64,000 nt of DNA from assembly GCA_016792585.1 (NCBI GenBank), contig JAEULB010000092.1, positions 26,204 to 90,203 of the forward strand, written 5' to 3'. Position 1 is the first letter of the stretch. Each line of letters begins with the position of its first letter. The notes below the pieces were generated by a model. The model was given only the letters and a program-made list of their open reading frames with translations. It was not told the DNA's origin and did no database searches. Below, piece by piece: positions 8,723 to 48,015 of this stretch. Source of the stretch: Rhodospirillaceae bacterium (GTDB lineage: Bacteria; Pseudomonadota; Alphaproteobacteria; SHVZ01). The position numbers and the translations under genes are program-made.

Positions 8723-9639
8723 TCGTCGCGCGGGTCCAGAACGTCGCGAAGGCCGTCGCCGACCAGGTTGAAGCCGAGGCTGACCACCAGGATGGCGAGG
8801 CCGGGAGCGGCGGCGAGGAACCAGCTGCCGAGCAGGTACTGACGGCCGGTCGACAGCATCGCACCCCATTCCGGCATCGGCGGCTGCGCGCCGAGGCCGA
8901 GGAAGCCCAGCGCCGCCGCGGTCAGGATGATGCCGGCCATGTTCAGGGTGACGCGGATGATCACCGAGGAGAGGCACATCGGCACCACGTGCTTGACCAC
9001 GATGCGCCAGGCCGGCGCTCCCTGGGCGCGGATCGCGGCGATGTAGTCGGACGATCGCACGGTCAGCGTCTCGGCGCGCGCCAGCCTCGCCATCGGCGGC
9101 CAGATCGTGAGCGCGATCGCGATCACGGCGTTGCGGATGCCCGGTCCGAGTGCTGCAACGAAGGCGAGTGCCAGGATCAGGCCGGGGAACGACAGGAAGA
9201 TGTCGGTGATCCGCATCAGGATCGTGTCGGTCCAGCCGCCGAAATAGCCGGAGACGGTGCCGACCAGAAGGCCGACCGGGGCTGCGATGATCACGACCAG
9301 GCAGGTGATCTGCAGCGTGATGCGCGAGCCGTAGACGACACGGCTGAAGATGTCGCGGCCGAGCTCGTCGGTGCCGAACCAGTGTGCGCCGGACGGCGGC
9401 TGCAGGCGGCGCGCGAGGTTCTGCTCGTTCATCGGGAACGGCGCGATCAGCGGTGCAAAGATCGCGACCAGCAGCAGCACCACGAGGATGGCGAGCCCGA
9501 CCATGGCGAGCGGGTTCTGCGAGAAGCGGACGCAGCCGAAGTAGAGGCGCTGCAGGCTCGCCTGGGTCGGCGACTGGCTGACCTCGGCGGTCAGGTAGGC
9601 GCGGAGCCCACCCTTTCCGGGTTCGATGACGGTGGTCAT
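8719..9639 (-). CDS. Peptide/nickel ABC transporter permease (DppC type)
   Basis: The 306-residue inner-membrane permease carries the N-terminal OppC-type extension with HWFGTDELGRDIFSR, the hallmark of this subunit. The inner-membrane transport signature is the EAA-loop-like AIRAQGAPAWRIVVKHVVP. About six membrane segments are visible. The start ATG overlaps the stop of dppB as ATGA. A much longer frame upstream is a shadow of dppB. Confidence 0.92.
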   Translation of the reverse strand: MTTVIEPGKGGLRAYLTAEVSQSPTQASLQRLYFGCVRFSQNPLAMVGLAILVVLLLVAIFAPLIAPFPMNEQNLARRLQPPSGAHWFGTDELGRDIFSRVVYGSRITLQITCLVVIIAAPVGLLVGTVSGYFGGWTDTILMRITDIFLSFPGLILALAFVAALGPGIRNAVIAIALTIWPPMARLARAETLTVRSSDYIAAIRAQGAPAWRIVVKHVVPMCLSSVIIRVTLNMAGIILTAAALGFLGLGAQPPMPEWGAMLSTGRQYLLGSWFLAAAPGLAILVVSLGFNLVGDGLRDVLDPRDE

Positions 9640-10694
9640 TTCGTGCGCGGATCCAGGATCCTGTAGAGGAGGTCGCAGATGAGGTTGATCGTGACGAAGA
9701 TGATGCCGACGATCAGCACACAGGCGAGGACCGCGTTCATGTCGCCGGCGAGAAGGCCCGCGACCAGATAGCGGCCGAAGCCGGGCCAGGCGAACACGGT
9801 CTCGGTGACGACGGCACCTTCGAGCAGGATCGCGTAGGCGAGCGCCACGATGGTCAGCAGCTGCACCGCGATGTTGCGGAAGGCGTGCTTGCGGATGACC
9901 TTCCACTTGGACAGGCCCTTCACCCGCGCCGCCAGGATGTATTCCTGCGAGAGCTGGGCCAGCATGAAGCTGCGCGTCAGCCGGCTGATGAAGGCGATGG
10001 CGTTGAAGCTGAGGATGCTGGCCGGCAGCACGATGTGCGAGAAGGCGTTCTGAAAAACCTCCCATTCGCCGGCGATCAGCGCGTCGACCAGCATGAGGCC
10101 GGTCACGCGGTCGACGATGTCGATATAGAAGACGTCGAGGCGCCCGGGCCCGCCGACCCAGCCGAGCATGGCGTAGAACAGCACAAGGCCCATCAGCCCG
10201 CTCCAGAAGGTCGGGACCGAGTAGCCCAGGAGGCCGATGACGCGGGCGAAGTGGTCGATCGGGCTGCCGCGATAGACCGCGGCGAGGACGCCGATCGGCA
10301 CGCCGAGACAGACGCCGATCGTGATCGCGATGGTCGCGAGCTCGATCGTCGCCGGGAACACCCGCATCAGGTCGGCGGAGACCTTGTTGCCGGTGAAAAG
10401 CGCGTTGCCGAACTCGCCGCGCAGCATGTCGGAGATGAAGAACCAGAACTGGACGTAGAGCGGCTTGTCCAGGCCCAGCTGCTTGTAGACCATGTCGTAG
10501 GTCGAGGCGTCGGCCTGCTCGCCGACGATGGCGATGACCGGGTCGATCGGCAGCATGCGCCCGATGAAGAAGGTGAGCGCGAGCAGGCCCAGCAAGGTCG
10601 CCGCCACCGACGACCCGATGCGCCAGGCGTCCCATACCCATAGCGGCAGCTTCGGCTTCGCCACGGGCTGCCGGTTGACGTCGGTCACGGCCAT
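9636..10694 (-). CDS. Peptide/nickel ABC transporter permease (DppB type)
   Basis: The 352-residue permease has the DppB layout: one N-terminal membrane helix, a periplasmic segment with QLGLDKPLYVQFW, then five more helices with the EAA-loop region VKGLSKWKVIRKHAFRN. It forms the channel with the DppC-type partner. It follows the solute-binding protein gene by about 20 bp, so the five genes at 7095-12318 read as one operon. Confidence 0.92.
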   Translation of the reverse strand: MAVTDVNRQPVAKPKLPLWVWDAWRIGSSVAATLLGLLALTFFIGRMLPIDPVIAIVGEQADASTYDMVYKQLGLDKPLYVQFWFFISDMLRGEFGNALFTGNKVSADLMRVFPATIELATIAITIGVCLGVPIGVLAAVYRGSPIDHFARVIGLLGYSVPTFWSGLMGLVLFYAMLGWVGGPGRLDVFYIDIVDRVTGLMLVDALIAGEWEVFQNAFSHIVLPASILSFNAIAFISRLTRSFMLAQLSQEYILAARVKGLSKWKVIRKHAFRNIAVQLLTIVALAYAILLEGAVVTETVFAWPGFGRYLVAGLLAGDMNAVLACVLIVGIIFVTINLICDLLYRILDPRTK

Positions 10695-10713
10695 GAAACC
10701 TATCCCCCGACTG

Positions 10714-12318
10714 CTACTTGCGCGCCGACGCGTAGTCGACCTTGAACGGGCCGATCGCGAAGTCCTTCACTTCCTTGCGGATCGCGATCGGGCGCACGGT
10801 CTGGAACATGTACGCCATCGGCCCGTTGTGGAGCATGTGCTCCTGGATCTTCTTGTATGTCGCGATCCGCTTGGCCGGATCCTTTTCCATCATCGCTTCG
10901 TCGGTCATCTTGTTGATGTTCTCGTCGAACCAGGCCGAGCGCCACGACGGGTACTGCGCCAGCTTGGACTCCAGACGGTTGTCCGGGTTGTAGGCATGGC
11001 GCGAGATCATGCTGTGCGCGTCGGGATATCCCGCGCCCCAGCCGATCTGGCCGATCTGGAACTCGCGCGCCCGCATCTTGGTGAAGAGGTTGGCGTCCGC
11101 CATCTGCTCGAGATCGAGCTTGATGCCGGCCTTGGCGGCGTTGGCCTGGATGTGCTGAGCGACCGCCGGATTGAACTGGTTCGCCGACAGGATGTATTTC
11201 ATCGAGAAGCCGTTCGGATATCCCGCTTCCGCCAGCAGCTTCTTGGCCATGTCGATGTCGAGCTTGAAGGGCAGCCCCTCCTTCTCGTCCAGCGCACCGA
11301 AGGCGCCGATCGGGACGAGGCTGTTACGCGCCTTGCCCAGATAGGCCATCACCGACTTCTCCAGCCCCGTGTAGTCGACGAGGTAGCGGAAGGCCTCGCG
11401 CACCTTGGGATTGGCGAGGATCGGGTCGCCCATGTTGAAGGCGAAATAGCTGAAGCCGTGCATCACAGTCTGCTCGATATGCACGTCCTTGTTCGTCGCC
11501 AGCGCCTTCAGGTCGTCGGCGCTGAGCAGCCGGCCGACGTCGATGTCGCTCTTCTCGAGCTGGAGGCGCTGCGCGCCCGACTCCGGCACGTGGCGGATCA
11601 GGACCCGCTTCAGGCCAGGCTTCTTGCCGAAGTAGTTGTCGTTGGCTTCGAGGATCACCACGTCGTTGGCGTTCCAGGTGCGCACCCGGTACGGGCCGAC
11701 GCAGTCGGACTGGGTCTTGAACCAGCCGTTGCCGTAGTCGCTCTTGCTGTCGGTGGTCTTGGCGTTCTTCTCGCCGGTCTCCTTGCTGAGCACCGAGGCG
11801 ACGTTGCTGGAGAACGCCGCCGACATCACCAGGCCGACCGGATAGGGCTTGTCCATCTTGACCACGAGCGTGTGGTCGTCGGTGGCGACGAACTGCTGGT
11901 CGGCCTTCTCGGAGCTGAAGCCCCACTCCTTGAGGTTGGCGGCGTTGCCGAAGTTGAGGTGGATGGCGCGCTTCAGGGACCAGGCGGCGTCATGCGCGGT
12001 CGCGGCCTTGCCGGACGGGAACTTGAGGTCCTTGCGCATCTTGAAGGTCAGCGTCATGCCGTCGGCCGAGGTCGACCAGCTCTCGGCGAGCTGCGGCTCG
12101 ATCTTGGCGACATCCTTGATGTTCGGCTGTACCAGGCGGTTGCAGACGTTGATCATGATATCGTTGCCGTTGACCTCGCCGATCTGCGCCGGGTCGAGTG
12201 TGATCAGCGCATCCAGGTTCCATGCCATGACCAAGGCGTCCTTGGGCGTCGCGGCATGCGCGGACGCGGCGGCGAGGGTAGCGGCAAGGATCAAGCTCGG
12301 GGCGAGCAGGCGACGCAT
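10714..12318 (-). CDS. Peptide-type ABC transporter solute-binding protein (SBP family 5)
   Basis: The protein has 534 residues and begins with a Sec signal peptide that ends near ASAHA-AT. The mature part is a family 5 extracellular solute-binding protein: ITLDPAQIGEVNGNDI at the start, then AESWSTSADGMTLTFKMRKD, the usual early strand of DppA/OppA relatives. It captures the ligand in the periplasm for the permease that follows. Peptides are the default guess, but this family also binds opines, nickel and sugars. A 9-bp dyad lies 25 bp upstream of the start and may control the operon. Confidence 0.92.
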   Translation of the reverse strand: MRRLLAPSLILAATLAAASAHAATPKDALVMAWNLDALITLDPAQIGEVNGNDIMINVCNRLVQPNIKDVAKIEPQLAESWSTSADGMTLTFKMRKDLKFPSGKAATAHDAAWSLKRAIHLNFGNAANLKEWGFSSEKADQQFVATDDHTLVVKMDKPYPVGLVMSAAFSSNVASVLSKETGEKNAKTTDSKSDYGNGWFKTQSDCVGPYRVRTWNANDVVILEANDNYFGKKPGLKRVLIRHVPESGAQRLQLEKSDIDVGRLLSADDLKALATNKDVHIEQTVMHGFSYFAFNMGDPILANPKVREAFRYLVDYTGLEKSVMAYLGKARNSLVPIGAFGALDEKEGLPFKLDIDMAKKLLAEAGYPNGFSMKYILSANQFNPAVAQHIQANAAKAGIKLDLEQMADANLFTKMRAREFQIGQIGWGAGYPDAHSMISRHAYNPDNRLESKLAQYPSWRSAWFDENINKMTDEAMMEKDPAKRIATYKKIQEHMLHNGPMAYMFQTVRPIAIRKEVKDFAIGPFKVDYASARK

Positions 12319-40949: not shown

Positions 40950-41552
40950 CTAGGTCTTCGGGAACGCCGCGTCGCGGACGATCGCGTCTTCCAGCATCGT
41001 CCGGTACAGCTCGCGCGGAATCTCGCGGGCGCCGAAGCGCGCCAGGTGCTCGGTCAGGAACTGGGTGTCGAGCAGCGTGAAGCTGCCGCGCTTGAGCCGC
41101 TCGACCAGGGAAGCCAACGCCACCTTGCTGGCGTCCGTCTCTCGGCTGAACATGCTCTCGCCGAAGAACGCCGCCCCCAGCGCCACGCCGTAGAGGCCGC
41201 CTACCAGCTGGCCGTCGCGCCAGGTCTCGACCGAATGCGCGAAGCCCAGGCGATAAAGCTGGTTGTAGAGCCGCTCGATCTCCGGGTTGATCCAGGTGTC
41301 CTTCCGCTTCGGCGTGGATTGGGCGCAGCCGGCCAGGACCTCGGAGAAGGCCGTGTCGCAGCGGACGTCGAAGATGCCGCGCTTGATCGTCTTCCTGAGA
41401 CTGCGAGGCATGTGGAATTCGTCGAGCGGCAGCACGCCGCGGCGGTCCGGGTCGACGAAGACGATGCGCGGGTCGGCACGCCCCTCGGCCATCGGGAAAA
41501 CGCCGATGGCATAGGCCTTGAGCAGCAGGTCCGGCGAGAGAGGCGTGCTCAC
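40950..41552 (-). CDS. aat: Leucyl/phenylalanyl-tRNA-protein transferase
   Basis: The 200-residue enzyme transfers Leu or Phe from tRNA to N-terminal Arg or Lys of proteins, marking them for ClpAP (N-end rule). Landmarks are YAIGVFPMAEG, SRETDASKVAL, LLDTQFLTEHLARFGA and HSVETWRDGQLVGGLYGVALG. In many Alphaproteobacteria aat lies next to accC; here the phosphoramidate operon stands between them, ending 7 bp before aat. Confidence 0.95.
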   Translation of the reverse strand: MSTPLSPDLLLKAYAIGVFPMAEGRADPRIVFVDPDRRGVLPLDEFHMPRSLRKTIKRGIFDVRCDTAFSEVLAGCAQSTPKRKDTWINPEIERLYNQLYRLGFAHSVETWRDGQLVGGLYGVALGAAFFGESMFSRETDASKVALASLVERLKRGSFTLLDTQFLTEHLARFGAREIPRELYRTMLEDAIVRDAAFPKT

Positions 41553-41559
41553 GCCCCTA

Positions 41560-42324
41560 CTATGCCCGAGGCCCGGTTCCCTGGACCAGGGTCAACTCGC
41601 CCCGGTCGATCAGGCGCTCGTAGAGCTCGAGATCCTCACCGCTGTCGACCTCGACCCAGCGGCCGGCCGCGGCGACGCCCTTGACCGCCGTTCCCGCTTC
41701 GATGAGCCGGCGGAGAAGCGAGGTCATGTCGAGGCGATCGACCTCGGCGGCGGACATGCCCCCCAGCAGCGCCCGCACGGCCCGCCATCCGGCAGGCTCG
41801 AACCTGAGAAGGCCCATGTACTGGCCTTCGATCTCGCGGACGTCGCCGACGCGGCGTCCGATGTCCACGATCCGGTCGCCGTCGAGGCGGAAGCTCTCCG
41901 CATCGGCGAGGGGATCGGCGAACCGCCGGCTCCAGAGCCAGAGCCAGTCGGGATCGTAGGAGACGGCGATCGGCGCCGACGGTGCCGACCGAAGCGCTGC
42001 GACCGTCGCGGCGCCGTAGACGATGTCGGCGTAGCTGACGACGACCGGGCCGACGGCGAGCCATTCGTCGGCGGCGAGAAGAGATCCCACCATGTTCGTC
42101 TCGCTCCAGCGCGGATTGTCGAAGCGGCGATTGCCGTAGCCGGCGAGCCGCTCGCCGCGATAGCCGCGCACGACGCCGATCTCGTCGATGCCGGCAGCGG
42201 CCAGCGCCGAGATCTGCCAGTCGATCAGCGGGCGGCGGCGGAGCTCGACCAGGCATTTCGGGCGGTCGTCGGTACGGCCGGCCATGCGGCTGCCGCGGCC
42301 GGCGGCGAGGATCACCGCTTTCAT
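41560..42324 (-). CDS. Nucleotidyltransferase, predicted CTP:phosphoglutamine cytidylyltransferase (Cj1416-like)
   Basis: The 254-residue protein has the N-terminal sugar-nucleotidyltransferase loop LAAGRGSRMAGRTDDRPK with the CLVEL continuation, then NMVGSLLAADEWLAVGP and VVSYADIVYG, which mark the phosphocholine-cytidylyltransferase-like branch. In Campylobacter jejuni the relative Cj1416 makes CDP-L-glutamine from CTP and L-glutamine phosphate (established there). The assignment here is inferred from the matching gene set and order. The ATGA overlap with the hydrolase gene upstream shows coupled translation. Without the neighbours it would be called a generic NTP transferase. Confidence 0.75.
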   Translation of the reverse strand: MKAVILAAGRGSRMAGRTDDRPKCLVELRRRPLIDWQISALAAAGIDEIGVVRGYRGERLAGYGNRRFDNPRWSETNMVGSLLAADEWLAVGPVVVSYADIVYGAATVAALRSAPSAPIAVSYDPDWLWLWSRRFADPLADAESFRLDGDRIVDIGRRVGDVREIEGQYMGLLRFEPAGWRAVRALLGGMSAAEVDRLDMTSLLRRLIEAGTAVKGVAAAGRWVEVDSGEDLELYERLIDRGELTLVQGTGPRA

Positions 42325-42917
42325 GCGAAGTGGCGCCGGATGCGCGCGATATCCTCGTCGCGATACGGCGACTCGCGCTCGGGATGCCACATCTGTCCCA
42401 GGATCGGCTCGCGGCGGTGGCGCAGGAACTCGACGACGCCGTCCGGCGCGCGCGCCAGGACCTCGAGATCGGGCGCGGTTTCCCTGGCACCGAAGCCGTG
42501 GAAGCTGTTGACCTCGGCGTCGAACGCCTCGCCTTTCACCCGATGACGGACCGCGACATGCCCCGACAGCTTCTCCAGCGTCACGCCGAAGCTGTCCTGG
42601 ATCACCTGCATGCCGCGGCAGACGCCGAGCACCGGCAAGCCGCGCTCGCGCGCCAGCCGCAACAGCCCGCGCTCGGTCTCGTCGCGCTCGGGCGCGTCGC
42701 CGCCGTAGCGGGCGAGGTCGTTGCCGCCGGTCAGCAGCAGGCCGGCGACGCCCGCCGTACCGAACATCGCAGCCGCCGTCTCCGGATGGTTCGGCATCGG
42801 CATCGCCGCGAAGCCGCAGGCGGCGAGAAGCCTGGTCCAGCTCTGGTCGAGCGCATCGCGCCGTTCGCCACGGCGAGGAACGATATCGACCCGCTGGCTG
42901 ACGGCAAGCAGGCGCAT
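42321..42917 (-). CDS. Class I glutamine-amidotransferase-like hydrolase, predicted gamma-glutamyl-CDP-amidate hydrolase (Cj1417-like)
   Basis: The 198-residue protein has the catalytic Cys at position 100 in VLGVCRGMQVI and the His and Glu of WHPERES near residues 178-180. LLTGGNDLARYGG is the peptidase C26 entry loop. It is normally annotated as gamma-glutamyl-GABA hydrolase, but the neighbours fit Cj1417, which splits CDP-L-glutamine to cytidine diphosphoramidate and glutamate (established in C. jejuni). The start follows the kinase stop by 2 bp, and the stop overlaps the nucleotidyltransferase ATG. Confidence 0.75.
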   Translation of the reverse strand: MRLLAVSQRVDIVPRRGERRDALDQSWTRLLAACGFAAMPMPNHPETAAAMFGTAGVAGLLLTGGNDLARYGGDAPERDETERGLLRLARERGLPVLGVCRGMQVIQDSFGVTLEKLSGHVAVRHRVKGEAFDAEVNSFHGFGARETAPDLEVLARAPDGVVEFLRHRREPILGQMWHPERESPYRDEDIARIRRHFA

Positions 42918-42919
42918 GG

Positions 42920-45265
42920 TCAGCTCAGGATCTCGACCTGCTGGCTTGCGCAGTCGACGAACAGCATCCGCGCCGCGGCCCAGCGCTGGAACAGCACCTC
43001 GCCGGCGCCGATGACCGCGGGCAGGCCGAGCTCATTGGCACGGATCGCCATGTGCGAGTTGACGCCGCCATAGGCGGTGACGAAGCCGGCGATCCCGCGG
43101 GTGAAGATCCAGTCGAATCCCGGATCGGCGCTGGGGATGGCGACGATGGCGCCGCACATCGCTTCGGGATCGCTGCTGTCCCTGACCGGGGCCCGGATCG
43201 CCTTCTGGCCGATGAAGTTCGGCTGCGTCGCCGGCAGGTGGAAGGCGAAGACGTCGTCGGTCGTGGCGATCAGCGGCGGCAGGCAGATGCTGCGGGTCAT
43301 CGCATGGCGCTCGCGACCCCGCTCGATCGACGCGCCGATCAGCTCGGCAGGATCGGCGCTCGATGCCATCAGCTCATGCAGCACGCCGATATTCGCGTAG
43401 GACATCTCGTCGGCGGAATAGCCATGCGTCTCGCCGAGCTGGCGCAGCAGCACCAGCGCGTCGCTGAGGCTGCGCGAGAACACGAACTTGGCGTATTCGC
43501 GCTCCTCGATTGCGCTTTCGAGGAAGTCGAACAGGCTGGTGACGCTGGTGTCGATGCCGAGCTCCGCCAGATGGCGCTCGATGCCGCGCATCTGGCTCAG
43601 GGAGAGCGCGAAGCGATCCTTCTCGGCCGCCTCGGGCGGCCGCGGCGCCGACCAGTCGAAGTAGAGATCGGGCGCCTCGTCGTAGCGCGGCGACAGGATG
43701 TCGTAGGTGCCGGGGCGCAGATGGCCGTACTCGGCAAGGAAGGCGGAACGGTCGAGGCGGCGGAAGTCCCCCGCCATCCGGCTGCCGACGGTCTTGAGTC
43801 CGAGCATGAACCGGTCGCGGTCGCTCGGCGCGATGAGACCGACGGCGGCCATGGAGTTGAGGAGCTGGACCGCAATGAAGCCGGCGCGTGCCAGCCCGGC
43901 GAAAGGCAGCGTGCCGTAGCGCTTGCAGTCCTCGAGCAGCCAGTAGATCCGCGAGACGGTATCGAGCTCGGCTTCCAGGATGCGCGGACGGCGTTCGTCG
44001 AGCAGACGCACCTTGCGGCTGTCCTGCACCCAGAGGCCCTGGTCGCGGTGGATGATCCGCTCGGTCAGCCGCTTGAGGCTGGCGGCGATCGCCTCGCGGT
44101 CGCCGGCGGAGAAGCCATGATCGGCGAGCCGCTCGAGCCTGGCCGGCAGGTCGAAGGTGTAGCAGGAGAAGACGATCTCGAACTCGACCTTGTCGTGCAG
44201 CGCCGGCACCGCGGCCAAGCGGTCGAGATAGTAGTTCACCAAGCGTCCGGCGATCCCGTCGTCGAGGTCCCTGGGCACGAAGGAGTTCATGCTGACGCGG
44301 ACGTCGATGTAGGGCAGCCCCTCGAAATGCACCATCAAGGGAAAGCTGCGGAGATTGCGGTAGCCGTAGTTGTCGCGCTGATAGGCCCAGATCGAATCCG
44401 TCACGAGGTCGCGATAGAGCGCCAGCGCCAGCGGCCGTGGCCGGAGGCCGATGATCTCGGCCGGATTCCAGTCGGGCATGACGCCATAGAGGCTGCGCTC
44501 GCCCGAGAGATAGGGATGCGGGCGCATGCCTTTCGCGACCCGGTCGGCGATCGCCTGGAGGGCGCGCTTCTGCGTGTCGAGCTTGATCGCCGGGCGCTGA
44601 CCGGCGATCAGGGGCCGGACCTGGAGGAGAGCCAGGCCGGTAGCGTCGACGGCGAACTCGACGTCGAGGGAATCATGGAGGAGATGACCTTCGAGCTCGC
44701 TCAGCAGATCGAGGATCGGCTGCAGCTCGGCCGGGCACCGGCCGCCGCCATGCTTCCAGCAGATGAAGGTCTTCAGCTGATCGGCGCGGCCGCCGGTGAC
44801 CGCGGTCGGATCGCCACGGTCGTCGTAGTTGATGACAACGTAGGGACTGCCGGTATTCGGATCGCGGGTGAAGGCGACGCCGCTGACGCTGATGCCGGAC
44901 AGCATCGGCTGGACCAGGACCTGATCGTCGTCGGCGGCCGCACCGTAGGAGGCGATCACGCGCCCGATCGCATCCGCGAGCGCTTCCCGGCCGACGTTCG
45001 CGACCGAGAGATAGCGGCCGGCCCCGGAGGCATGCGCCGAGTCTTCGCTTCTCGCGCTGCTGCGGACGATCAGCGGCGTCGCGGACCAGGATTGCGCCGC
45101 CACCCTCGCCGCCACGGCAGACGGGTCGGCGCGCCAATCGGCGACCGAGAAAAGGACTAAGGGCAGGATCCGCGCCGAGCGGACATGCGGCGTCAGCCGG
45201 GCAAGCGTCTCTGCCTTGGTGCCGAAGGCGACTCTCGCTTCCGCAGTGGGCCGCGCCCGCGCCAT
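42920..45265 (-). CDS. PEP-synthase-like protein, predicted L-glutamine kinase (Cj1418-like)
   Basis: The 781-residue protein has a PEP-synthase-type ATP-grasp domain at the N-terminus (RSSARSEDSAHASGAG near residue 68, GVAFTRDPNTGSPYVVINYD), a long middle region without database-like motif, and a C-terminal swivelling phosphohistidine domain, GGVNSHMAIRANELGLPAVIG, with His at residue 738. There is no PEP-binding barrel, so it is not a PEP synthase. Cj1418 has the same domain order and nearly the same length, phosphorylates the amide of L-glutamine with ATP, and uses a His at about the same place (from memory, 737). The start ATG at 45265 is preferred over one nine codons upstream. Confidence 0.8.
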   Translation of the reverse strand: MARARPTAEARVAFGTKAETLARLTPHVRSARILPLVLFSVADWRADPSAVAARVAAQSWSATPLIVRSSARSEDSAHASGAGRYLSVANVGREALADAIGRVIASYGAAADDDQVLVQPMLSGISVSGVAFTRDPNTGSPYVVINYDDRGDPTAVTGGRADQLKTFICWKHGGGRCPAELQPILDLLSELEGHLLHDSLDVEFAVDATGLALLQVRPLIAGQRPAIKLDTQKRALQAIADRVAKGMRPHPYLSGERSLYGVMPDWNPAEIIGLRPRPLALALYRDLVTDSIWAYQRDNYGYRNLRSFPLMVHFEGLPYIDVRVSMNSFVPRDLDDGIAGRLVNYYLDRLAAVPALHDKVEFEIVFSCYTFDLPARLERLADHGFSAGDREAIAASLKRLTERIIHRDQGLWVQDSRKVRLLDERRPRILEAELDTVSRIYWLLEDCKRYGTLPFAGLARAGFIAVQLLNSMAAVGLIAPSDRDRFMLGLKTVGSRMAGDFRRLDRSAFLAEYGHLRPGTYDILSPRYDEAPDLYFDWSAPRPPEAAEKDRFALSLSQMRGIERHLAELGIDTSVTSLFDFLESAIEEREYAKFVFSRSLSDALVLLRQLGETHGYSADEMSYANIGVLHELMASSADPAELIGASIERGRERHAMTRSICLPPLIATTDDVFAFHLPATQPNFIGQKAIRAPVRDSSDPEAMCGAIVAIPSADPGFDWIFTRGIAGFVTAYGGVNSHMAIRANELGLPAVIGAGEVLFQRWAAARMLFVDCASQQVEILS

Positions 45266-45266
45266 C

Positions 45267-46049
45267 TCAGCTCCGTCTCGCCGACCAGGCACGCGTCAGG
45301 TTGACGGTCTCGATCGTCTCGCGGCCCTTCAGGCGATCGCGGATGTAGTCGAGAAACCGCTCGAACTTCTGCTGGCCCAGCTGGACCTGCAGGTCGTTCA
45401 CCGACCGCCAGACGCCGAGGTACTGGTCGATCGTCATCGACCGCGACTGCCGGCCTTCGAGATAGACGACGTCCTCGAAGAACGGGCAGGCCCAGAGAAG
45501 CTCGGTCATCCGGTCGGCGATGCCCGAGCGACCCGACGACACCCGCTTTATCTCCGGATTGAGGGTCTTCAGGTGCGCCTCGATGTCCAGGAGCTCCGGG
45601 CTGCCGTCGAGGTAGCGCGGGTTCCAGAGCGCGACGAACCGGCCGCCCGGACGCAGCACGCGATGGAACTCGCGCACACCCCGATCGAAGTCGACCCAGT
45701 GGAAGGACGAGGCCATCGACAGGAAATCGGCGCTCCCGGCAGGCCGCCCGGTTTCCTCGCCATTGCCTTTCGCCCACTCGATGCCGAGCCCATTGCTGTC
45801 GGCGACACCGTGGGCGCGCATATCGTCGTTCGGCTCCACCGCGACGACCGAGTGCAGACCGCGGCCGGCGAGCATGCGCGTCCAGATGCCGGTGCCGGCA
45901 CCGACGTCGACCGCAGCGATCTCGGAAGGCGGCTTGCCGACGAGCGCCAGGAGGCCGGTCAGCACGCTCTCGGAGTATCCCGGGCGATACTTAGAATAGT
46001 CGGAGGCGAGGCCGGTGAAGTCGCCATGGGTCAACGTCGGTTTCGACAT
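45267..46049 (-). CDS. Class I SAM-dependent methyltransferase of the phosphoramidate operon
   Basis: The 260-residue protein has SAM motif I VDVGAGTGIWTRMLAG near residue 47, motif II-like SMASSFHWVDFDRG, and HRVLRPGGRFVALWN. The N-terminus THGDFTGLASDYSKYRPGYS is characteristic. In C. jejuni two methyltransferases (Cj1419, Cj1420) finish the O-methyl phosphoramidate group, so a methyl transfer on the donor or product is the likely job here. Its start overlaps the kinase stop by one base (TGATG), and the glutamine-kinase gene follows after 1 bp. Confidence 0.8.
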   Translation of the reverse strand: MSKPTLTHGDFTGLASDYSKYRPGYSESVLTGLLALVGKPPSEIAAVDVGAGTGIWTRMLAGRGLHSVVAVEPNDDMRAHGVADSNGLGIEWAKGNGEETGRPAGSADFLSMASSFHWVDFDRGVREFHRVLRPGGRFVALWNPRYLDGSPELLDIEAHLKTLNPEIKRVSSGRSGIADRMTELLWACPFFEDVVYLEGRQSRSMTIDQYLGVWRSVNDLQVQLGQQKFERFLDYIRDRLKGRETIETVNLTRAWSARRS

Positions 46050-46618
46050 CAGGCCCTCTCCGATCCGACATGGCGCATCACGCGGGCGGCGATCTCGTCG
46101 GGCGAGAGTCCCTCCGCGCGATCGAACACGAGATCGGCGCGGCGAGGCTCCTCGGCCTCGATGTCGACGCCGACGACGTCCTTGATTTCGCCTGCCAGCG
46201 CACGCCTGTAGAGACCCTTGTCGTCCTGGGCGACGAGTTCGTCCATGCTCATCCGCAGATAGACTTCCGTGTAGTACGGGATATTCGCACGGTTCCACGC
46301 GCGGACCGCTTCGAACATCGAGATGGTGGCGCAGACCACGGTGGCGCCCTGCCTCGACAGCTCGCGGCAGAGGCGCCCGTAGCTGAAGGCCAGGCGCCGG
46401 CGCTCGTCGATCCCGTGACCGGATCCTCCGCCGAAGACCTCGCGCAGCACGTCGCCGTCGAGCAGCAGCGGCCTTAAGCCGGCGGCACCGAGCCGAACGA
46501 CGAGACGCCTCGCGACCGTCGTCTTGCCGGCACCGGAAAGCCCGGTGACCCAGAAGACCCGGCCCTCGCCGGCGACCGGCCCGTCCTCAGTCATCCCCTG
46601 TCCCGCCGCCTCGGTCAT
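46049..46618 (-). CDS. APS-kinase-family protein, predicted cytidine diphosphoramidate kinase (Cj1415-like)
   Basis: The 189-residue P-loop kinase has Walker A GLSGAGKTT at residues 26-34 and LLLDGDVLREVFGG. It departs from true adenylylsulfate kinases where they bind APS: the SPY segment reads ATISMFEAVRAWNR, RDxKGLY reads QDDKGLY, and the FTG loop reads IKDVVGVD. No sulfate-assimilation gene is nearby. The C. jejuni relative Cj1415 adds a 3'-phosphate to cytidine diphosphoramidate (established). A second ATG at 46594 is possible. It is the first gene of the five-gene unit, 32 bp after accC. Confidence 0.78.
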   Translation of the reverse strand: MTEAAGQGMTEDGPVAGEGRVFWVTGLSGAGKTTVARRLVVRLGAAGLRPLLLDGDVLREVFGGGSGHGIDERRRLAFSYGRLCRELSRQGATVVCATISMFEAVRAWNRANIPYYTEVYLRMSMDELVAQDDKGLYRRALAGEIKDVVGVDIEAEEPRRADLVFDRAEGLSPDEIAARVMRHVGSERA

Positions 46619-46650: not shown

Positions 46651-48015
46651 TCACGCGGCGGGCTTCGTTCCCTGCACCAGCCCTTCGAGCCAGTGGATGT
46701 CGTAGCGGCCGTCCAGGAAGGCCGGCTCGGTCATCAGCCGCTGGTGCAGCGGGATCGTGGTGTCGATGCCGCCGATCACGTATTCGCCGAGTGCGCGCTT
46801 CAGCCGCATCAGGCACTCGTTACGGCTGGAGCCGTGGACGATCAGCTTGGCGACCAGGCTGTCGTAGTGCGGCGGCACGGTGTAGCCGGCGAAGACGCCC
46901 GAATCGACGCGCACGCCGGCACCGCCGGGCGTGTGGTAGTCGGAGATCTTGCCCGGCGAGGGACGGAAGGTCCGGGGATCCTCGGCGTTGATCCGGCACT
47001 CGATCGAGTGTCCCTGGAAGCGGACGTCGTCCTGGGTGAAGGAGAGCCTGGAGCCCGAGGCGACCTTGATCTGCTCGCGCACCAGGTCGATGCCGGTGAT
47101 CGCTTCCGTGATCGGATGCTCGACCTGCAGGCGGGTGTTCATCTCGATGAAATAGAAGCGCCCGTCCTCGTAGAGGAATTCGATCGTGCCGAGGCCGCGG
47201 TAGCCCAGCTTGGTCATCGCCTCGGTCGCGATCTTGCCGATCTCCTCGCGTGCCGCGGCGTTGAGGGCCGGCGACGGCGCCTCCTCGAGCAGCTTCTGGT
47301 GACGGCGCTGGATCGAGCAGTCGCGCTCGCCCAGGTGCACGACGTTGCCGAAGGAGTCGCCGAGGATCTGGATCTCGATGTGGCGCGGCTTCGCCAGGTA
47401 CTTCTCGATATAGACCGCGTCATTGCCGAAGCCGGCCTTGGCCTCGCGCCGCGCGAGACGCAGGGCCTCGTCGAGTTCGGACTCGGCCAATGCCACCTTC
47501 ATGCCGCGGCCGCCGCCACCCGCCGCCGCCTTGACGATGACCGGGAAGCCCATCTGGGCGGCGAGGCGCTTGGCCTCGGCGTCGCCCTCGGGTCCGGCCT
47601 CGATCGCGCCGTCGGAACCGGGCACGCAGGGTACGCCCGCCTCGATCATCGCCTTCTTCGCCAGGATCTTGTCGCCCATCAGGCGGATGTGGTCCGGCGT
47701 CGGGCCGATGAAGGTGAAGCCGTGCTCCTCGACCATCTCGCAGAAGCCGGCATTTTCGGCGAGGAAGCCCACGCCCGGATGGATCGCGTCCGCGTTGGTG
47801 ATCGTCGCGGCGGTCAGGATCGCCGGGATGTTGAGGTAGCTCTCGCGCGCCGGGGGCGGGCCGATGCAGACCGCTTCGTCGGCAAGGCGCACATGCATCG
47901 CGTCCGCGTCGGCGGTCGAGTGCACGGCAACGGTCTGGATGCCCATCTCGCGGCAGGCGCGGTGGATGCGGAGCGCGATCTCGCCGCGGTTGGCGATGAG
48001 CACCTTCTCGAACAT
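46651..48015 (-). CDS. accC: Acetyl-CoA carboxylase, biotin carboxylase subunit
   Basis: The 454-residue ATP-grasp enzyme carboxylates biotin on AccB for fatty-acid synthesis. It begins [17 protein letters not shown] and has the glycine-rich [12 protein letters not shown], the ATP-lid region [20 protein letters not shown] and the catalytic [17 protein letters not shown]. It lies 17 bp after accB, as usual. Downstream it would normally be followed by aat or by nothing; here it is followed by the phosphoramidate operon on the same strand. Confidence 0.97.

Follow-up and report, generated by a model that had tools for sequence, protein, structure and literature searches.

A predicted cytidine phosphoramidate donor cassette between accC and aat in a Rhodospirillaceae bacterium and candidate sulfotransferase-fold partners

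The window analyzed here is a 64,000-nucleotide stretch of a Rhodospirillaceae bacterium genome (contig JAEULB010000092.1, positions 26,204 to 90,203) that includes, on its minus strand, five intact genes spanning 46618-41560. In order of transcription these specify an adenylyl-sulfate (APS) kinase-like protein (APSK), an S-adenosylmethionine (SAM) methyltransferase (MT), a predicted glutamine kinase (KIN), a class I amidotransferase-like protein (GAT), and a nucleotidyltransferase (NT). Five gene families, tight packing, intact motifs, insertion between accC and aat, and recurrence of the set elsewhere were read directly from the sequence. The gene set very likely encodes a pathway for a phosphorus-nitrogen (P-N) donor, which from the enzyme kinds is most likely 3'-phospho-CDP-phosphoramidate as in Campylobacter jejuni. 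The account that we consider probable is that of a horizontally gained cassette predicted to make this donor, the P-N group of which would be handed on by a sulfotransferase-fold enzyme encoded elsewhere in the genome. What is new is how widely the cassette is spread, that the acc operon has captured it, and a scheme for the transferase step that parallels sulfation and can be tested.

The cassette and its predicted products

A first-pass annotation of the window had recognized a gene set of the CDP-phosphoramidate type, a view that family models, gene linkage, and gene fusions bear out. The genes were described as overlapping. The five frames are indeed intact and tightly packed, with at most 4 nt of overlap and at most 2 nt between neighbors, but overlap is confined to two of the four junctions: the MT start codon (46049) shares one nucleotide with the APSK stop codon and NT (ATG at 42324) overlaps GAT by 4 nt, whereas gaps of 1 and 2 nt separate MT from KIN (ATG at 45265) and KIN from GAT, respectively. 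Pfam matches for all five proteins exceeded the cut-offs (APS_kinase, 101 bits; Methyltransf_11, 61 bits; NTP_transf_3, 70 bits; PPDK_N, 54 bits and PEP-utilizers, 51 bits in KIN; Peptidase_C26, 86 bits and GATase, 49 bits in GAT).

KIN comprises 781 amino acids from the ATG codon or 790 from an alternative GTG start at 45292. The protein scored 947 bits with family NF004508 (cut-off, 501), with residues 18-789 aligning to positions 6-788 of the 789-position model. This model carries the name 'hypothetical protein' and presumably includes Cj1418 of C. jejuni. When 7998 candidates were scored, 7180 were homologues of KIN, and several of the 120 that were listed bear the JGI name glutamine kinase. 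The domain order that had been proposed for the kinase, namely ATP-grasp, middle, and His domains with no phosphoenolpyruvate (PEP) barrel, was recovered, and no PEP-barrel family was matched in a Pfam scan. The His residue predicted to be phosphorylated, which had been placed near residue 738, is exactly H738 from the ATG codon (H747 from GTG) within the motif GGVNSHMAIR. All 19 rows of an alignment have this His, and the pattern GGxxSHMA was observed in 80 of 81 kinases, the remaining sequence being GGANSHMSIR. The AlphaFold2 (AF2) model of KIN had a mean confidence (pLDDT) of 80. The closest solved architecture is that of rifampin phosphotransferase, and the top structural matches belong to the class formed by this enzyme, pyruvate phosphate dikinase (PPDK), and PEP synthase. 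Other structural matches, including D-Ala ligases, were taken to reflect the common ATP-grasp domain only. Identity as rifampin phosphotransferase (NF041857, 33.7 bits against a cut-off of 999) or PEP synthase (40.7 bits against 739.75) was rejected. Phylogeny, the check put forward in the first-pass annotation, gave a concordant result: KIN fell in a group with 95 related kinases, and 14 weakly similar proteins, which were taken as PEP-synthase, PPDK, or phosphotransferase-system (PTS) types by length and match and not by annotation, lay outside it. KIN is a predicted L-glutamine kinase of the Cj1418 type.

APSK exceeded the cut-off of family NF004041 (170 bits against 127) and fell below that of the apsK model TIGR00455 (104 bits against 138.7). 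NF004041 is named adenylyl-sulfate kinase, and we take Cj1415 to match this same model. In a tree APSK clustered with cassette kinases and was split with 100/100 support from the APS-kinase domains, located in frames of 671-773 amino acids, of six genomes in its family. Thus, both the subfamily model and the phylogeny separate APSK from assimilatory APS kinases. Elsewhere in the genome of the window, on contig C24, a long frame encodes a distinct APS-kinase domain. An ARAGORN tRNA-like match of unknown type (46478-46574) lies within APSK on the coding strand without a normal anticodon and was judged to be probably false.

The best family for GAT was NF045546, gamma-glutamyl-CDP-amidate hydrolase, which was matched over nearly the full length, and the next best family scored 49 bits. 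PDB sequence matches of NT include phosphocholine cytidylyltransferase 1jyk. Several observations weigh against the donor assignment. The NF045546 score of 108 bits for GAT compares with an equivalog cut-off of 250, four other cassette-type hydrolases score 71-126 bits, and GAT is filed as a protein predicted to work like this hydrolase and not as a member of the family. NT matches general, MobA-like nucleotidyltransferase families alone. The cassette also was likened to the C. jejuni pathway by enzyme kind and family models, without a Campylobacter sequence in the alignments. Moreover, in a congener designated G001 two frames are needed to read the kinase (L125:8291-10661), and the site lacks an APSK homologue.

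Position in the acc operon and recurrence among bacteria

The genome of the window (G000; 88.8% complete) was compared with five congeners (G001-G005) and a sister genus (G006). The gene order in the window is aroQ-accB-accC, cassette, aat, and accC and aat are directly joined in four of the five congeners (G002, G003, G004, and G005). In G001 the cassette occupies the same accC/aat site as in the window. When the terminal 36 nt of accC at cassette-free junctions were compared with the window, two sites matched (Table 1), one being the end of accC itself and the other the exact end of NT before aat, and the next best places reached 21-22 of 36. The same double match was found in G001 (29-30 and 26-29 of 36; next best, 21-22). 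Thus, the old accC end was displaced downstream and in the window now forms the tail of the NT frame. Aligned with each other, the two window copies show no more resemblance than chance would give (score of 26, with 2000 shuffles reaching 44), and they were not listed in a general repeat search of the window, being visible solely by comparison with cassette-free junctions. On the basis of these junctions the cassette is an insertion that splits aroQ-accB-accC from aat. The third-codon-position GC content (GC3) of the cassette genes is 0.65-0.89 compared to 0.92-0.93 for four neighboring genes, which is compatible with horizontal gain.

Table 1. Coordinates of the cassette genes and flanking features in the window.
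Feature	Position	Strand	Evidence
APSK, APS-kinase-like, predicted CDP-phosphoramidate 3'-kinase (Cj1415-type)	46049..46618	-	PF01583, NF004041, tree
MT, SAM methyltransferase, predicted phosphoramidate O-methylation (putative role)	45267..46049	-	PF08241, 61 bits
KIN, predicted L-glutamine kinase (Cj1418-type), ATP-grasp, helical middle, and phosphohistidine domains	42920..45265	-	NF004508, AF2, tree
Predicted phosphorylated His codon (in GGVNSHMAIR)	43052..43054	-	invariant in 19-row alignment
GAT, class I amidotransferase-like, predicted gamma-glutamyl-CDP-amidate hydrolase (Cj1417-type)	42321..42917	-	NF045546, PF07722, PF00117
NT, nucleotidyltransferase, predicted CTP:phosphoglutamine cytidylyltransferase (Cj1416-type)	41560..42324	-	PF12804
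accC, biotin carboxylase, upstream host-operon neighbor	46651..48015	-	TIGR00514, 714 bits
aat, leucyl/phenylalanyl-tRNA-protein transferase, downstream host-operon neighbor	40950..41552	-	TIGR00667, 188 bits
accC 3' end, upstream copy, 36 nt	46651..46686	-	28-31/36 with four cassette-free junctions
accC 3' end, displaced downstream copy, end of NT frame	41560..41595	-	24-27/36 with accC ends of the same junctions

KIN was found in three of six genomes of the genus including that of the window (G000, G001, and G003), and cassette locations vary. In G003 the cassette is on a different contig from accC-aat, in G004 the APSK-MT and GAT-NT ends reside on two small contigs, and in G006 the cassette is at yet another location. 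The kinase was not found in a search of the G004 genome, though APSK, MT, GAT, and NT are present. G001 does have an APSK homologue on contig C53, where another methyltransferase homologue comes after it. The split kinase and the lack of APSK at the site suggest that the cassette may be decaying in the G001 lineage, and either decay or assembly error may explain the split frame. A gene for a protein with tetratricopeptide repeats (TPR) and a family-41 glycosyltransferase domain is located just past aat in G001 (L125:12662-14722), and a stretch of similar size occurs there in G005.

A scan of genome contigs returned at least 591 stretches, at least 549 of which were confirmed, and 80 loci were retained. 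Cassette functions were counted within 7.5 kb of the kinase. APSK was present in 73 loci, MT in 69 (29 of which were window-like by score), GAT in 78, and NT in 78. All five functions were found together in 63 of the 80 loci, and in 47 of the 56 loci with room on both sides. Among the 17 loci that lack one or more functions, the sequence stops near the kinase in about half, and five belong to a single Pseudomonas group that has no methyltransferase. Co-occurrence of the five functions is far beyond chance. APSK and the kinase are fused in 13 loci, and a further locus (L157:652-3687) encodes a 1011-amino acid kinase-hydrolase fusion. The latter record is filed as a phage from human feces, although the surrounding genes look bacterial and the phage label is doubtful.

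The 80 records carry 12 phylum names and the 63 complete loci carry eight. As many of the records are metagenome bins, single odd placements may represent contamination. Cultured genera in the record titles include Pseudomonas, Chitinibacter, Azospirillum, Zoogloea, and Azonexus, and Campylobacter is named in none of the 80 titles. KIN was identified in 15 of 398 Pseudomonadota genomes including that of the window (~4%), which represent 12 of 213 genera, and in none of 14 control genomes. Fourteen plasmid records contain a KIN homologue at ≥80% query coverage. The location outside a capsule locus reported in the first-pass annotation holds for the window, whereas other loci have varied settings. 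In seven loci of a Pseudomonas group (L007-L010, L020, L025, and L065) the kinase or cassette is preceded by flgK and genes of the flagellin type, which suggests a flagellar-glycan phosphoramidate. Wide recurrence, insertion in the acc operon, and the transferase suggested below reveal that the frame of the first-pass annotation was too narrow, and its interpretation overall is partly supported.

If KIN instead phosphorylated an amide or amine other than glutamine, the product would be another, related P-N nucleotide or a natural product in the form of a small-molecule phosphoramidate. Kinase identity to KIN falls to 32-38% within the same NCBI family, and a member on a Cupriavidus taiwanensis plasmid (L160) has no GAT, NT, or APSK homologue within the 20 kb that were fetched, both of which are in keeping with this alternative. 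However, the window set retains the hydrolase-type and nucleotidyltransferase-type proteins that are needed by a glutamine route, and we regard the alternative as unlikely. The C. taiwanensis kinase (positions 8947-11310) is 35% identical to KIN, scores 911 bits with NF004508, and is close to genes for a thiamine pyrophosphate (TPP) enzyme and histidinol-phosphate transaminase and to nifK. It perhaps belongs to another P-N pathway.

Candidate transferases and the parallel with sulfation

The first-pass annotation noted that no transferase gene is present in the window and proposed that the acceptor is new or is encoded elsewhere. The absence agrees with the lack of any match when the open reading frames of the window were searched with three hidden Markov models (HMMs) of cassette-neighbor families. 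The proposal on the acceptor can be improved, as sulfotransferase-family proteins linked to cassettes in other loci and an unlinked relative in the genome of the window point to a transferase. The Pfam content of 122 proteins that flank or lie inside cassettes was compared with that of 122 proteins at least 3 kb away. None of the four families Sulfotransfer_3, Sulfotransfer_1, Inositol_P, and Glyphos_transf was among the first 25 distal families, so that each has at most three distal members, and p values were computed with three assumed. Sulfotransfer_3 was found in 21 cassette-near proteins (p 7e-5) and Sulfotransfer_1 in 11 (p 0.025), sets that may overlap. The largest cluster of sulfotransferases has 17 members, 13 of which are within 70 nt of a cassette gene, and all 12 members of a CysQ-like phosphatase cluster (12 loci) touch one. 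In Azospirillum lipoferum 4B the cassette is followed downstream by two annotated sulfotransferase genes that lie on opposite strands. Within the genus, a 249-amino acid sulfotransferase-family protein is encoded directly behind the G003 cassette, a relative with 60% identity occupies the window's APSK position in G001, and a relative with 83-84% identity is beside NT in G004, with one TGA codon in a longer reading of the frame.

No orthologue of the G003-type sulfotransferase was found in the genome of the window, bearing in mind its 88.8% completeness. A profile of 17 cassette-linked Sulfotransfer_3 proteins, used without a positive control, also produced no match in this genome, PF13469 gave two matches that were both below cut-off, one being a Stf0-type sulfotransferase on contig C185, and PF04464 gave none, so that a Glyphos-type protein was not found. 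The candidate C40 (L150:3767-2457, 436 amino acids), which is encoded on a different contig from the cassette, scored 68.8 bits with PF00685. The protein is 53-56% identical to two proteins that are encoded on either side of the G006 cassette and has a relative in G001 with 52% identity over the part matched. Relatives were not found in G002-G005. The C40 model (pLDDT 82) matches sulfotransferases that use 3'-phosphoadenosine 5'-phosphosulfate (PAPS) over residues 145-432. The structural matches leave out the first 145 residues, an N-terminal region of the alpha/beta type.

C40 and its relatives retain RDP..S and RKGxxGDW, which we take to be 3'-phosphate binders in known sulfotransferases. 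The Lys of the phosphosulfate loop (PKSGTW) is missing, however, the corresponding sequence being TPNCGTG in C40 and TPNCGTG, YPGCGSN, or FQNAGAS in loops of the C40 type. An unlinked protein on contig C158 keeps the loop as YPKSGNTW. Among 16 hand-picked candidates, from which the Sulfotransfer_3 cluster was left aside, none of the 14 whose loop could be aligned has the Lys (L067 has an Arg there), and RKGxxGxW was present in eight of 16. The motifs suggest that proteins of the C40 type may be adapted to a donor that carries a 3'-phosphate and no sulfate. C40 is the best transferase candidate in this genome.

The findings that count against a sulfotransferase-fold partner, and against C40 in particular, are as follows. 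Members of the C40 group occur in G000, G001, and G006, whereas searches found none in G003, which has the cassette (82% complete), or in G004, which has APSK, MT, GAT, and NT. The contig that carries C40 is 11 kb long, and the C40 gene adjoins one for an S15 peptidase. The sulfotransferase link rests on neighborhood, and the window cassette has no such gene beside it. In the Sulfotransfer_3 cluster c15 (17 proteins from 15 loci) an Arg (GRSGS and similar) is present in 15 of 17 rows at the position of the Lys lost from C40, which indicates that the loss is not general. By Pfam counts alone neither Inositol_P, the CysQ-like family (9/122 cassette-near proteins, p 0.07), nor Glyphos_transf (8/122, p 0.11) was significantly enriched. 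Glyphos_transf-like clusters c20 and c28 (19 proteins) represent a competing transferase class in other lineages, with the caveat that seven of 11 members of c20 lie about 2 kb from the cassette. A Vibrio plasmid cassette has a CDP-glycerol glycerophosphotransferase-family gene downstream and cysD/cysN upstream, a neighborhood that is compatible with sulfation. Fusions of sulfotransferase with APS kinase exist (P0144 and P0148), a link that is equally expected for ordinary sulfation.

Two other explanations bear on these observations. It is quite possible, if somewhat less so than not, that the donor is made but that the transferase in this genome is an unrecognized enzyme other than C40, with the sulfotransferases near cassettes being surface-sugar neighbors only. 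The lack of a transferase homologue in the window, the unlinked position of C40 and its patchy occurrence, and the Glyphos_transf-like class are in line with this explanation, whereas the enrichment of sulfotransferases beside cassettes, the two C40 relatives that flank the G006 cassette, and the second sulfotransferase family that adjoins cassettes or cassette parts in G001, G003, and G004 speak for a sulfotransferase-fold partner. Alternatively, APSK might be a true APS kinase and the adjacent sulfotransferases might use PAPS, in which case the locus would direct sulfation and KIN would have another role. Although APSK belongs to the APS-kinase superfamily, sulfotransferases recur near cassettes, and the Vibrio cassette adjoins cysD/cysN, the window cassette lacks ATP sulfurylase, a separate APS-kinase domain is encoded on C24, the cassette APSK proteins form their own group, and APSK is fused to the glutamine-kinase family and linked to NT and GAT. 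This alternative is considered very improbable.

In the mechanism that the preferred account of a P-N donor and a sulfotransferase-fold partner would entail, the donor would be made from glutamine, ATP, and CTP. NT would add CMP from CTP, GAT would remove glutamate to leave CDP-phosphoramidate, and APSK would phosphorylate the ribose 3'-OH to yield a cytidine counterpart of PAPS. An enzyme resembling PAPS sulfotransferases that has kept the hold on the 3'-phosphate and lost the phosphosulfate-loop Lys would then move the P-N group to a hydroxyl acceptor, with O-methylation of the group by MT before or after transfer. A CysQ-like phosphatase, in those lineages that possess one, would clear the by-product cytidine 3',5'-bisphosphate. 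The position behind accBC may provide steady transcription at a housekeeping level. In a broader proposal, for which we judge the chances to be about even, many phyla would have a phosphoramidation system parallel to sulfation, in which an APS-kinase-derived enzyme and re-purposed sulfotransferases act on surface or flagellar glycans or other acceptors with CysQ-type recycling, and the donor cassette in the window would have been captured by a core fatty-acid operon. If correct, a dedicated P-N donor pathway spans at least eight phylum labels and ~4% of the sampled Pseudomonadota genomes, some in cultured bacteria, and a chemistry regarded as rare may prove much commoner than has been assumed. 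There also would be named candidates for the transferase step, and a relative of APS kinase would end the pathway by building the handle that a sulfotransferase fold grips.

Comparison with known systems

Cj1419 and Cj1420 of C. jejuni are presumed methyltransferases. In the available text of the source on the C. jejuni pathway for O-methyl phosphoramidate (MeOPN), no function is assigned to these two proteins, glutamine, ATP, and CTP are converted to CDP-phosphoramidate 3'-phosphate by Cj1415-Cj1418, and deletion of Cj1421 or Cj1422 leads to loss of MeOPN from one sugar each (PMC11800397). The glutamine kinase is described as C. jejuni-specific in the accessible part of a 2022 review (PMC9561416), orthologues in several Campylobacter species are noted in that of a 2014 paper (PMC3907429), and biological P-N bonds are viewed as underestimated in that of a 2019 review (PMC6429109). 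A literature search found neither a report of wide distribution of the pathway nor one of a sulfotransferase-type phosphoramidate transferase; subscription journals were mostly outside its coverage, and absence from the literature is therefore unproven.

The cassette resembles the C. jejuni MeOPN pathway in that four enzyme kinds and a methyltransferase gene are in one cluster with the same predicted donor. It differs by residing in the acc operon instead of a capsule locus, by having no transferase gene beside it, and by its putative partner from the sulfotransferase family. The acc-operon neighbors and the lack of matches to neighbor-family transferase models in the window, models that were not derived from Cj1421 or Cj1422, place the cassette outside capsule loci. 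KIN shares the ATP-grasp and swiveling phosphohistidine domains with rifampin phosphotransferase, PEP synthase, and PPDK, but belongs to a separate sequence family, and no PEP barrel was matched in KIN. The parallels with PAPS sulfation are a 3'-phosphorylated nucleotide donor predicted to be made by an APS-kinase-type enzyme, the sulfotransferase fold, and a CysQ-like phosphatase in related loci, whereas the cassette lacks ATP sulfurylase and the predicted donor is a cytidine phosphoramidate. Similarly, C40 has the fold and 3'-phosphate motifs of PF00685 sulfotransferases, but C40-type proteins have lost the Lys of the 5'-phosphosulfate loop. Finally, the unmethylated phosphoramidates in the lipopolysaccharide (LPS) of Xanthomonas campestris and Shewanella MR-4, as cited in the accessible text of PMC3907429, are likewise P-N decorations reported outside Campylobacter.

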